From Cupriavidus basilensis (GTDB lineage: Bacteria > Pseudomonadota > Gammaproteobacteria > Burkholderiales > Burkholderiaceae): a stretch of DNA of 64,000 bases. The number at the start of each line of letters is the position of its first letter. Positions within the stretch are counted from its first letter, which is position 1. Shown piece after piece: positions 11,962-16,507 of this stretch. The stretch covers positions 1,054,001-1,118,000 of the forward strand of contig NZ_CP062803.1 in the NCBI RefSeq assembly GCF_008801925.2. Direction: 5' to 3'. The translations under genes were made by a program, and so were the position numbers. The notes under the pieces are model-generated. The model worked only from the letters and a program-made list of their open reading frames with translations, ran no database searches and was not told the origin of the DNA.

Positions 11962-13266
11962 TCAGGCCGCCGCGTGGCGCGGGGCGGCGTGCGTTCTCGC
12001 TGGCTTGAGATAGCGAGCCACCGAGAGGTCGTCCGCGCGGATCGCCGGCGAGGTGCCGGACACCAGGTCCGACAGCAGCTTGCCCGAGCCGCAGGCCATG
12101 GTCCAGCCCAGCGTGCCATGGCCGGTATTGAGCCACAGGCCCTTGACCTTCGTGGGGCCGACGATGGGCGTGCCATCCGGCGTCATCGGGCGCAGTCCGG
12201 TCCAGAAGCTGGCACGGCTGACATCGCCCGCGCCCGGGAACAGGTCTGTGACCACATGCTCCAGGGTGCGGCGCTTGGCCGGGTCGAGCGTGCGGTCATA
12301 ACCCACGATCTGCGCCATGCCGCCCACGCGGATGCGATCGTCGAAGCGGGTGATTGCCACCTTGAAGGTTTCGTCGAGCACCGTGGAAACGGGGCTGCGA
12401 TCGGCATTGGTCATCGGCACCGTGAGCGAAAATCCCTTAAGTGGGTACACCGGCAGGTTCGACAGGCCCGGCAGGAAGTTTTTCACGAACGGTGTCGACC
12501 AGCTGCCCAACGCTACCACGACCACGTCGGCCATGACAGGCTCGCCGCCCACCACGGCGCCGGTAACGGCATCACCCTTGGTCAGCAGCCCGTCGATGGA
12601 GCGGTTGTATTGGAACTGCACGCCCAGGCCTTCGGCCATGGCGGCGAGTTGCCGGGTGAACAGCTGGCAGTCGCCGGTTTCATCGTTGGGTAGCCGCAGG
12701 CCGCCGGTCAGCTTGTGGCTGACGGCGGCCAGGGCCGGTTCGCTGGCGGCGAGTTCCTCGCGCGATAGCAACTGGTAGGGCACGCCGGCTTGCTCCAGCA
12801 CGGCAATGTCCTTGGCGGCGCCGTCGAGCTGCTCGGCGGTGCGGAAGAGTTGCAGCGTGCCTTGCTGGCGGCCCTCGTAGGCGATGCCGGTATCGGCGCG
12901 CAGGGCGACGATGCAGTCGCGGCTGTACTCGGCCAGGCGCACCATGCGTTCCTTGTTGACGGCATAGCGCTCAGCGCTGCAGTTCATCAGCATCTGCCAC
13001 ATCCATTGCAGCTGGAACAGCGTGCCGTCCGGTTTGATGGACAGCGGTGCGTGCTCCTGGAACATCCACTTGATGGCTTTGAGCGGCACGCCGGGTGCGG
13101 CCCAGGGCGATGCATACCCCGGGGAGATCTGGCCGGCGTTGGCGAAACTGGTCCCCAGCGCGGGTGCGGCCTCCCGGTCGATCACGGTGACCTCATGGCC
13201 GGCACGGGCCAGGTACCAGGCGCTGGTAACGCCAATTACGCCACTGCCAAGAACGAGAACGCGCAT
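11962..13266 (-). CDS. dadA: D-amino acid dehydrogenase, small subunit
   Basis: This 434-residue FAD enzyme of the DAO family deaminates D-amino acids (chiefly D-alanine) to 2-oxo acids and feeds electrons to the respiratory chain at the inner membrane. The N-terminal dinucleotide-binding motif is [19 protein letters not shown] followed by the acidic end of the second strand (VIDRE). [16 protein letters not shown] stretch, characteristic of DadA, follows. C-terminal [14 protein letters not shown] and [16 protein letters not shown] motifs complete the FAD fold. The length matches E. coli DadA (432). It is divergent from an Lrp/AsnC-type gene across an AT-rich 109-base gap, the usual arrangement for a regulator controlling dadA. 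Confidence 0.93.
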
Positions 13267-13375: not shown

Positions 13376-13879
13376 ATGAGAACGAGTCGTCAGCCCGTGC
13401 GCAGCCTGGACCGGCTGGATCGGAAGATCCTGGCCTTGCTCCAGGCGGACGGGCGTATGTCGATGAAGGAACTGGCGGAAGCGGTTGGCCTGACCATCAC
13501 GCCATGCATCGAGCGGGTCAAGCGCATGGAGCGTGACGGCGTGATCATGGGCTACTACGCGCGCCTGAATCCCGCGCTGCTCGGCAGCGGCTTGCTGGTG
13601 TTTGTCGAGATCTCGCTGGGCAACAAGTCCGGCAATATGTTCGAGCAGTTCCGCCGCGAGGTGTCGCGCATTCCGGAAGTGCTGGAGTGCCATCTGGTCT
13701 CGGGCGATTTCGACTACCTGATCAAGGCGCGCATCCGCGAGATCGGCGAGTACCGCCGTTTGCTGGGCGATATCCTGTTGCAGCTGCCGGGCGCCGCTCA
13801 GTCCAAGAGCTACGTGGTGATGGAAGAGATCAAGGAAACGCTGGCGATCGCGGTCGACGAGAAGGCGCCGCACGCGTGA
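13376..13879 (+). CDS. Lrp/AsnC family transcriptional regulator
   Basis: This 167-residue regulator has an N-terminal winged helix-turn-helix ([19 protein letters not shown], then [20 protein letters not shown]) and a C-terminal RAM/ACT-like ligand domain (residues ~75-150, with [18 protein letters not shown]). Such proteins bind amino acids and form octameric discs. Divergence from dadA suggests it senses an amino acid, probably alanine, and activates dadA, like Pseudomonas DadR or Lrp. The name is left open because the Lrp subfamily cannot be fixed. The start is preceded by AACAGGAATAACTA. Confidence 0.9.
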
Positions 13880-13904: not shown

Positions 13905-14987
13905 CTAGAACAGCGACATCTGCGGCGCGGCGCTCGCCTGGGAGAAATGTTCGATGGTGAGCGGGTGGCGCTCGGCATTGAGCCCGAAGCGCTGGCAGGC
14001 CAGCTTGAAGCGCTTGCGCAGCAGTTCGGCAAAGATGCCCGTGCCGGTCATGCGCGTGCCGAACCGTGAGTCGTAGGCCTGGCCCCCGCGCATTTGCGCG
14101 ACCAGGCTTTCGACGTGCCGGGCGCGCAGCGGATGGTAGGTGGCCAGCCACTCTGAGAACAGCTGCTCCACCTCGCGCGGCAGGCGCAGCAGGATATACG
14201 CCGCGGTTTTCGCGCCGGCCCTGGCGCCGGCCTCAAGGATGGACTCCATTTCCGGATCGGTCAGGCTCGGAATGACCGGCGCCACCATCACCCCCACCGG
14301 TATGCCGGCCTCGCTCAGGGAAGCGATGGCGGCAAGGCGGCGCGCCGGCGCGCTTGCGCGGGGCTCCAGCGTGCGGGCGATCTCGTTCTTGAGCGACGTC
14401 ACCGACATATGGACCCGGACCAGGTTCTTGGCCGCCATGCGCTGCAGGATGTCGATGTCGCGCGTGACCACGCCCGACTTCGTCGTGATGGCCACCGGGT
14501 GGTTGAATCGCTCCAGCACTTCCAGGATGCCGCGCGTGATCTTGAGATCCCGCTCGATGGGCTGGTAAGGATCCGTATTGGCCCCCAGCGCGATCACCGT
14601 CGGTACATAGTTGCGGTGAGCCAGTTCGGCCTCGAGCAAGGCGGCGGCATTGTCTTTTGCGTACAGACGGGTTTCGAAGTCGAGGCCTGGCGAAAGCCCC
14701 AGATAGGCGTGGCTGGGCCGGGCATAGCAATAGATGCAGCCATGCTCGCACCCGCGGTACGGGTTGATGGACGCGTCGAACGGCAGGTCTGGCGACTGGT
14801 TGCGCGAGACGATGCGTTTGGCCTTCTCCGTGAAGACAATGGTCTGGATTTGGGGTGTCTCTGGCTCATCGAAGGCTTGGGACTCGTCGGCGACCCGTTC
14901 GCGGGTCCAGGCGTCGAACCGGCTGACGTCGTTCGAACGCGCCGCCCGGCCTTTCAGCGGGCTGGAGGAGGGTGGTCGGGTTGGCAC
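13905..14987 (-). CDS. PA0069-family radical SAM protein (spore photoproduct lyase-related)
   Basis: This 360-residue radical SAM enzyme has the [4Fe-4S] motif CEHGCIYC, i.e. Cys80-x3-Cys84-x2-Cys87. A family stretch YRGCEHGCIYCYARPSH and a SAM-site GANTDPYQPIE follow. It belongs to the family named after P. aeruginosa PA0069, related to spore photoproduct lyase (SplB); its reaction is unknown. The start is GTG at 14987 with a CAGGA ribosome site. Two features point to DNA repair. A near-perfect LexA box sits in its promoter. The last five residues, QMSLF (356-360), resemble the beta-clamp-binding consensus QL[SD]LF. It converges with the Lrp-type gene, 25 bases between the stops. Confidence 0.9.
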   Translation of the reverse strand: MPTRPPSSSPLKGRAARSNDVSRFDAWTRERVADESQAFDEPETPQIQTIVFTEKAKRIVSRNQSPDLPFDASINPYRGCEHGCIYCYARPSHAYLGLSPGLDFETRLYAKDNAAALLEAELAHRNYVPTVIALGANTDPYQPIERDLKITRGILEVLERFNHPVAITTKSGVVTRDIDILQRMAAKNLVRVHMSVTSLKNEIARTLEPRASAPARRLAAIASLSEAGIPVGVMVAPVIPSLTDPEMESILEAGARAGAKTAAYILLRLPREVEQLFSEWLATYHPLRARHVESLVAQMRGGQAYDSRFGTRMTGTGIFAELLRKRFKLACQRFGLNAERHPLTIEHFSQASAAPQMSLF

Positions 14988-15013
14988 GTTGGCGGTCCTG
15001 CGGCTACAGTTGA

Positions 15014-15033
15014 TACTGTATATTTATACAGTA
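15014..15033 (-). promoter_or_regulatory. LexA (SOS) box upstream of the radical SAM gene
   Basis: TACTGTATATTTATACAGTA is a near-perfect palindrome and differs from the E. coli SOS consensus (CTGT-N8-ACAG core, TACTGTATATATATACAGTA) at one position. It lies 26 bases upstream of the GTG start and contains the -10 element of the minus-strand promoter, so bound LexA would block transcription. Confidence 0.93.
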
Positions 15034-15051
15034 CTTTGAGTAGGCAGCCAA
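15023..15051 (-). promoter_or_regulatory. sigma70 promoter of the radical SAM gene
   Basis: On the minus strand, TTGGCT (15051-15046) and TATAAA (15028-15023) are separated by exactly 17 bases. The -10 lies inside the LexA box. Transcription would start near 15016, giving a leader of roughly 30 bases. Confidence 0.7.
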
Positions 15052-15072: not shown

Positions 15073-15996
15073 TTATTGGGCGGGAGGCGCGGCATCGGGG
15101 CTATCCCAGTAGGGCGGGGAGCCGAAGCGCGCAGCAAAGAAATCGATAAAGGCGTGTGTCTTCGCGGGCACCTGGTGGCGGCTGGGATAGACCGCCCAGA
15201 TCGACACGACCGGCAGCACCGGGTAATCGGGCAGCACGCGGACCAGCGCGCCGCTGCGCAAGTAAGGGCCAACGTCCCAGGTCGATTTGAGCGCCAGCCC
15301 CATGCCAGCCAGGATTGCATCCCGGATGACTTCGCCGTTGTCCGTGCGCAGGTTGCCGGTGACCGCTACCGCTGTCTTGCCCAGCGCCGTGTCGAACTGC
15401 CAGGATGACTGGTCTCCCAGCACGATGCAATTGTGGTTGCGCAACTCATCCGGATGCCGGGGGGTGCCGTGCGCGGCAAGATAGCCCGGCGAAGCGCAAA
15501 CGGCGCGATGGCTGGGGCACAGGGGGCGCGCCACCAGGGATGAGTCCGGCAACGCCCCCATGCGTAATGCGACATCGACGCCGGCCTCGACCAGGCCGAT
15601 CACCTGATCGGTCAGGCGCAGGTCCAGCGTCAGGCCTGGGTAGGCGGCGAGAAAGGCGGGGATGGCTGGCGAGACGTGCTGGCGGCCGAAAGAGGCGGGC
15701 ACCGTGACCCGCAGCTGCCCTTGGGGCGCCTGCGCGCCGCGCCCCACCGATTGCGCGGCCTGGCCGGCCGTGTCGAGCAATTGCGCGGCATGTTCGAGGA
15801 AACGCTCGCCTTCGCCGGTCAGGGAGATGCGGCGCGTGGTCCGGTGCAGCAGCCGCGTGCCTAGCTGCTGCTCGAGCTGCGCCAGGCGGCTGCTGGCCGA
15901 GGAGGTGGATAACCCGAGATCGCGCGCCGCGGCCGAGAGGTTGCCCAGCGACGCTGCGCGCACGAACACGGCGATGTCCAGCAGGTCGAAGTGCAT
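15073..15996 (-). CDS. LysR family transcriptional regulator
   Basis: This 307-residue LysR-type regulator has an N-terminal winged helix-turn-helix (residues 1-60, LSAAARDLGLSTSSASSRLAQLEQQLGTRLLHRTTRRISLT) and a type-2 periplasmic-binding-like effector domain. The subgroup is that of CrgA/DsdC-unlike LysR proteins with VPASFGRQHVSPAIPAFL. No divergent target gene is apparent: the gene upstream encodes a TM2 protein on the same strand and the one downstream is the radical SAM gene. Its regulon and inducer are unknown. Its 3' end lies 40 bases from the LexA box of the next gene. Confidence 0.9.
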   Translation of the reverse strand: MHFDLLDIAVFVRAASLGNLSAAARDLGLSTSSASSRLAQLEQQLGTRLLHRTTRRISLTGEGERFLEHAAQLLDTAGQAAQSVGRGAQAPQGQLRVTVPASFGRQHVSPAIPAFLAAYPGLTLDLRLTDQVIGLVEAGVDVALRMGALPDSSLVARPLCPSHRAVCASPGYLAAHGTPRHPDELRNHNCIVLGDQSSWQFDTALGKTAVAVTGNLRTDNGEVIRDAILAGMGLALKSTWDVGPYLRSGALVRVLPDYPVLPVVSIWAVYPSRHQVPAKTHAFIDFFAARFGSPPYWDSPDAAPPAQ

Positions 15997-16021: not shown

Positions 16022-16507
16022 TTACTGCGACAAGGCGCGCGCGGCTTCGACCTGGGATTCGAAGAATGTCTGGAAACTGATGGCCAGGCCCGCCATCAAC
16101 AGGCCGGTGCCGATCAGCAGCGACAGGATCACCAGGATCACGACGGGCCAGCCCGAACGGGTAGGCGTGCCATGCGGGTTGAAGCGGGCATCCCACTTGT
16201 CGTCGGGGCGCAGGCCATACACGATGGCCGCCAGGAAGGCGCTGGTCACCGACGTGCCGCCGGCAATGGCAAAGGTCCAGTTCAGGGCGGGCGAGCCGGC
16301 GCCCGTCTGCATCGACATGACGCCGATGACCCCGGCGAGTGCCGCCAGCAGGTGCGCCCAGGCAAATTTATCGCGCAAGCCACCCAGGTAGAAGCGATGC
16401 AGGCCCACCGTGCCGAACAGGAAGGCCAGTGCGACCGTGATCAGTTTGGATTTGCCCTGAAGCGCTTTGGGGGCAGCGGTGGCTGAAACTTGGGTAGCGG
16501 CGGGCAT
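16022..16507 (-). CDS. TM2 domain-containing membrane protein
   Basis: This 161-residue inner membrane protein has an N-terminal TM2 domain carrying the family motif FGTVGLHRFYLG. About four hydrophobic segments are visible: residues ~23-37, ~50-66, ~78-95 and ~122-145. TM2 proteins are widespread and lack a defined biochemical function in bacteria. It lies upstream of the LysR gene on the same strand with a 25-base gap and could share its transcript. On the minus strand a TACAAT -10-like element occurs in the upstream gap. Confidence 0.75.
   Translation of the reverse strand: MPAATQVSATAAPKALQGKSKLITVALAFLFGTVGLHRFYLGGLRDKFAWAHLLAALAGVIGVMSMQTGAGSPALNWTFAIAGGTSVTSAFLAAIVYGLRPDDKWDARFNPHGTPTRSGWPVVILVILSLLIGTGLLMAGLAISFQTFFESQVEAARALSQ

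Follow-up and report, generated by a model that had tools for sequence, protein, structure and literature searches.

The 64,000-nucleotide (nt) stretch of Cupriavidus basilensis DNA analysed here (contig NZ_CP062803.1, positions 1,054,001 to 1,118,000; hereafter the window) carries, just upstream of a gene for a radical S-adenosylmethionine (SAM) protein of the PA0069 family, a palindrome that resembles a LexA operator of the SOS response. Does this palindrome place the gene under LexA control, and what would such control say about the enzyme? The best explanation of the whole is that the box is a functional LexA operator and the gene an SOS gene, likely encoding a radical SAM enzyme that acts on DNA lesions; we give it a probability of about 0.88. 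Regulation alone, under two unrelated LexA motifs in different groups of bacteria, ties this uncharacterised family to DNA damage, and a test of its function is therefore worth doing.

The box and the putative promoter of the radical SAM gene

The elements around the start of the gene are as follows.
15014-15033, no strand assigned: LexA (SOS) box TACTGTATATTTATACAGTA, with 19 of 20 consensus bases.
15046-15051, minus strand: −35-like hexamer TTGGCT.
15023-15028, minus strand: −10-like hexamer TATAAA, inside the LexA box, 17 nt from the −35; a consensus match only.
14996-14999, minus strand: Shine-Dalgarno-like AGGA, 8 nt before the GTG.
13905-14987, minus strand: PA0069-family radical SAM gene (splB-like), 360 amino acids, GTG start, matching NF033668 and PF04055, with cluster cysteines C80, C84 and C87.
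15073-15996, minus strand: LysR-family regulator, upstream of the radical SAM gene.

Direct reading of the sequence places TACTGTATATTTATACAGTA where the original prediction had put it, with a single mismatch to the E. coli SOS consensus, TACTGTATATATATACAGTA. It is the sole match with three mismatches or fewer in the window, and none was found in 100 shuffles. The bare CTGT-N8-ACAG core is found once against 0.55 expected per 64 kb, and by itself is thus weak evidence; on that count alone the palindrome might be the site of another regulator, or a chance AT-rich palindrome. The coordinates predicted for the minus-strand TTGGCT-17-TATAAA pair also hold: the −10 hexamer lies inside the box, the edge of which is 26 nt from the GTG at 14987. 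TTGGC recurs in five of the six closest copies and AGGAC in all six. The pair was read from the sequence and is not listed by the promoter scan, the rule of which demands T as the final −10 base. Near the box the scan gives one other pair, on the plus strand at 14981-15010.

The LysR gene ends before the box, as had been claimed, 39 nt short of it. Since it does so on the same strand, we rejected the box as a site of that gene. The plus-strand frames near the box are in our judgement mechanical frames, antisense to the LysR or the radical SAM gene. It is plausible that the radical SAM gene is the only target of the box.

LexA-type boxes elsewhere in the genome

The genome has both lexA and recA, each with a CTGT-N8-ACAG box of the kind found in the window. 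Genome-wide, this pattern has 52 sites against 31 for the reversed pattern. Fifty of the 52 were listed, the window site among them, and the 49 others were tabulated against the consensus: 18 match at 15 or more of the 20 bases and 31 at 13 or fewer. The window site, with 19, scores like the site at imuA. Six of the 18 other strong sites lie at SOS-type genes recognised by Pfam or NCBIfam, namely recA, lexA (two boxes), dinB, a UvrD-type helicase and imuA.

The same survey brought out further sites. Two small proteins (L100:3492-3851, plus strand; L095:1590-1949, minus strand), 64% identical over 119 residues and both starting with MFAC, each lie about 70 nt behind a strong box; they have no Pfam match and are possible SOS genes. 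Two adjacent strong boxes (L119:2059-2097, contig C2) stand at the start of a 121-amino-acid frame, also without a Pfam match. Finally, CTGTATGCGAAAACAG occurs in seven copies on either strand (L097, L101, L107, L108, L112, L121 and L128), each inside a 174-amino-acid frame; these probably represent a repeated element rather than LexA sites.

Recurrence of the box at orthologues

The original prediction proposed a scan of genomes of the order for the box upstream of the orthologues. The family exceeds its cut-off in 56 of 60 genomes of the genus, 123 of 300 of the order and 93 of 276 of the class. The four other genus genomes, with split genes under the cut-off, are outside the counts, and four order genomes over it were left out (one with an in-frame stop, two with intein-like inserts and one with the gene in pieces). 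Thirty of the 93 class genomes were read; of the rest, one is that of the window, one was counted with the order and 61 were left out. The 350 nt upstream were read for 55 other copies from the genus, for 117 from the rest of the order and for the 30 from the rest of the class that scored best.

The exact box is present in 21 of the 55 genus copies and 41 of the 117 order copies. Controls gave 2, 0 and 0 exact boxes in reversed sequence (genus, order and class, respectively) and none in gene interiors. With one mismatch allowed, the counts are 21, 55 and 4, against 3, 8 and 3 in reversed sequence and 2, 3 and 1 in gene interiors. The box thus recurs in the order, where the reversed control is 0, in a patchy manner.

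A second set consisted of named loci, the best 80 of at least 596, a few of them with less than 350 nt upstream. In the Betaproteobacteria, 14 of 18 named copies carry CTGT-N8-ACAG. In the Alphaproteobacteria, 38 of 43 carry GTTC-N7-GTTC, the LexA motif of that group. The GTTC motif is also present in two of five loci placed only as Pseudomonadota, a third of which has the CTGT motif, and in a locus labelled Marinimicrobia. Neither motif was found at the Muproteobacteria, Acidobacteriota and Nitrospiria loci among the 80. The reversed control was 0 for both motifs. That two unrelated LexA motifs are upheld at one gene is the strongest evidence for the predicted LexA control.

Conservation was compared in 15 copies aligned on the box. 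Its mean is 0.92 over the box and 0.88 over the inner eight bases, which were not part of the selection pattern; the flanks reach 0.50 (upstream) and 0.51 (downstream). For the six closest copies the values are 0.95 over the box, 0.69 upstream and 0.85 downstream. A chance palindrome was rejected on the shuffles, the comparison with the other genome sites and this conservation over divergent flanks. Another regulator's site fares no better: the 19/20 match, a box common to recA and lexA of the same genome, and the alpha LexA motif that takes its place at alpha copies all speak against it. We consider either origin highly improbable.

Two lineages of the gene within the genus

A FastTree tree of 203 proteins sets the window copy and 14 genus copies (foreign-type) apart from 41 other genus copies (resident-type). 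The same split is obtained with IQ-TREE for 81 proteins, among them 18 of the 41, which group with Paraburkholderia, Caballeronia and Burkholderia. Forcing 33 genus rows together was rejected (log-likelihood 189 lower, p-AU 0.000139), in a test whose groups were defined once the first tree was known. The foreign-type lineage falls together with copies from Pusillimonas and Pandoraea. As those of Pandoraea lie among the foreign-type copies, the gene may have been acquired more than once.

The box is present in 15 of 15 foreign-type copies, that is, in exact form in all 14 besides the window copy, and in 7 of the 41 resident-type copies. Box presence on the 203-row tree requires 22 changes against 53.7 in shuffles, a comparison in which near-copies make for clustering. 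The contrast within one genus between box kept, box lost and gene replaced amounts to a natural experiment on the SOS timing of the enzyme.

Three further genes of the window define the genomic slot concerned.
13376-13879, plus strand: lrp-type regulator, which converges on the radical SAM gene and forms one border of the slot.
16022-16507, minus strand: TM2-domain protein; the other border.
11962-13266, minus strand: dadA (D-amino acid dehydrogenase), divergent from lrp.

At all 41 resident-type loci lrp lies upstream of the gene and in the same direction, and the TM2 gene comes next, opposed, at 14 of the 15 resident-type loci with wide flanks. The window arrangement (LysR, gene, opposed lrp) is found at 8 of the 15 foreign-type loci (L001, L035, L039, L040, L042, L043, L044, L045). 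At three others (L032, L036, L041) the gene has the direction of lrp, and at the last four (L033, L034, L037, L038) no lrp was found within the stretch examined. Both lrp and TM2 surround the foreign-type gene at eight loci (L001, L032, L039, L040, L042, L043, L044, L045); at least these eight copies therefore occupy the resident slot.

Two loci carry both types. In L340 and L341 a boxed foreign-type gene faces a resident-type copy head to head (L340:852-1643; L341:833-1654). From residue 92 or 87 onwards this copy matches L057 at 89%, the N-terminal part before this being unmatched. This looks like a replacement caught midway.

Relative to the lrp stop, the first start codon is at −4 to +33 nt in the 34 boxless resident-type copies and at +3 to +78 nt in the seven boxed ones, the start codons compared being the first available and not proven. 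Given this overlap, the two sets cannot be told apart by closeness to lrp alone; what distinguishes them is the missing box. No exact box was found in the roughly 560-1500 nt upstream of the 34, stretches of which 10 reach into dadA. We infer that the boxless gene passed to the transcript of lrp. Deletion of the interval that holds the box was considered for these copies and dropped, the distance from the lrp stop to the aligned start being similar (medians of 108 and 99 nt).

Proposed LexA control of the gene

LexA control of the radical SAM gene, the central claim of the original prediction, is well supported by comparison: the boxes at lexA and recA, the foreign-type copies and the alpha motif all argue for it, and by all comparative signs the box would be a real SOS operator. 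In an undamaged cell, LexA dimers would cover the −10 of the gene and obstruct RNA polymerase. Upon damage, RecA filaments would trigger LexA self-cleavage, and the gene would be derepressed together with the rest of the SOS regulon.

Several results weigh against this reading. The original prediction named absence of the box from close orthologues as the finding that would count against it, and such absence is seen in part. Thirty-four of the 41 resident-type genus copies are without the box; the gene can therefore do without SOS control. An exact box is absent from all of the 30 best-scoring copies from the class beyond the order, and with one mismatch their 4 compare with 3 in reversed sequence. 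Only 2 of 10 named gammaproteobacterial copies carry CTGT-N8-ACAG. Moreover, the genes at 12 of the 18 other strong sites of the genome could not be named as SOS genes, and a strong match need not therefore mark a known SOS gene. In the nearby frames scanned at 9 of these 12, no named SOS family was found, and one site is near a gloB-type gene.

One of the two boxed gammaproteobacterial copies is that of a Pseudomonas sp. (L286), with AACTGTATATTTAAACAGTA at −24 from the extrapolated start.

LexA control of splB was predicted in 2012 in alpha- and beta-Proteobacteria, under the heading of photoreactivation, the beta species including Cupriavidus taiwanensis, Ralstonia eutropha and R. metallidurans (PMC3323433). 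According to that paper, the LexA motif is GTTC-N7-GTTC in alpha species and CTGT-N8-ACAG in most beta and gamma species, and the splB product is a predicted photolyase with homology to the lyase of B. subtilis. By its description, its splB is the same type of gene as that of the window, with the same class of LexA motif. Its sites were predicted in multi-chromosome genomes, its electrophoretic mobility shift assays being on Vibrio promoters. The trait was not observed there in Gammaproteobacteria, unlike the two boxed copies found here. Two lineages in one genus and loss of the box beside lrp do not appear in the portion of the paper covered.

Further afield, SplB or radical SAM genes are placed in LexA regulons of Bacteroidetes (PMC8565304) and of Gram-positives and Balneolaeota (PMC7739468), and the radical SAM gene vnz_31145 in that of Streptomyces by chromatin immunoprecipitation sequencing and RNA sequencing with mitomycin (PMC9380542). 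Compared by description, these three systems resemble that of the window in placing a broadly SplB-like radical SAM protein under LexA, and differ from it in having other LexA motifs. SplB-like proteins have also been linked to SOS gene neighbourhoods (PMC3765255). The literature search returned nothing that joins PA0069 or Rv2578c with LexA, and the listing of P. aeruginosa PA0069 in the LexA regulon, which the original prediction mentioned, was not confirmed by it. LexA control of such a gene is thus not new in kind; what is new is this copy and its history within the genus, with two gene lineages, a foreign-type copy that keeps the box and mostly boxless resident-type copies beside lrp. A gene replacement in Cupriavidus was not met in the literature searched, as far as its coverage extends.

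The product of the gene

Residues 12-360 of the protein match NCBIfam NF033668 (PA0069 family radical SAM) with 498.3 bits against a cut-off of 360, which bears out the family assignment made earlier. The CxxxCxxC motif (C80, C84, C87) is present in all 223 family rows. Among the 8000 candidates sharing most words with it, the closest scored relative is 98% identical (Cupriavidus sp. D39). The next best NCBIfam model is that of the Rv2578c family radical SAM proteins (NF038135; intein form NF038136), with 225 bits, below its cut-off of 430.

The solved fold closest to the predicted structure is spore photoproduct lyase (PDB 4fhc, 4k9r, 4fhf), which also has the radical SAM CxxxCxxC: 264-267 residues align at 4.0 Å, with only 15-17% identity in the fold alignment. 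In a sequence search of solved structures the lyase was not listed at E up to 1. The fold raises the question of whether this is a genuine spore photoproduct lyase, SOS-controlled and repairing 5-thyminyl-5,6-dihydrothymine, which would also agree with the photoreactivation heading of PMC3323433 and with the homology to the lyase of B. subtilis that the paper states for its predicted photolyase. Two lyase family models match the window protein far under their cut-offs (21.7 bits against 400 for TIGR04070, and 24.2 against 438).

Spore photoproduct is typical of dry, spore-type DNA, which also counts against a true lyase. The hydrogen-donor cysteine of the lyase is C140/C141, and the titles of lyase structures in PDB name C140 mutants. 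This cysteine, before TDP, is apparently absent from the window family. In one MAFFT mode the conserved cysteine of lyase-like proteins aligns with residue 136, a position filled by A, V, T, S, I, G or M, with no Cys in any of the 223 rows; a second mode does not settle the column. A cysteine at position 129, present in 137 of the 223 rows, might stand in for it; the window protein has P there. The hhalign alignment of the family with three lyase-like proteins is limited to a C-terminal stretch. Among 299 genomes of the phylum, five matched TIGR04070 at E 1e-20 and none exceeded its cut-off, so the lyase-like sequences in our alignments are relatives, not proven lyases. The low model scores and the apparently missing cysteine count against lesion repair as well. 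A true lyase is in our view quite improbable.

Alternatively, the SOS-controlled enzyme could modify a target other than DNA in damaged cells, such as tRNA, a compound of the nucleotide pool or a protein. Spore photoproduct lyase scores about 3 Z units above the structures counted for this alternative, and LexA wiring under two different motifs favours a role in the damage itself. We regard a non-DNA target as rather unlikely. In our preferred reading, the product is a radical SAM protein with the predicted fold of spore photoproduct lyase, and its most likely role is to reverse or process a lesion of a DNA base, probably not spore photoproduct by the classical mechanism.

More broadly, PA0069-type proteins could be a distinct and widespread LexA-controlled repair enzyme without the lyase cysteine, directed at a lesion other than spore photoproduct, and Cupriavidus could have lost SOS control beside lrp and regained it through a foreign boxed copy. 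This wider account is tentative and falls somewhat short of even odds.

In two order genomes, a PA0069-family gene forms a 696-amino-acid stretch (L338:360-2447, minus strand; L339:460-2547, plus strand) with an intein-like insert near the radical SAM motif. In both inserts Intein_splicing is below and LAGLIDADG_3 above the cut-off. The sister family Rv2578c likewise has an intein form in NCBIfam.
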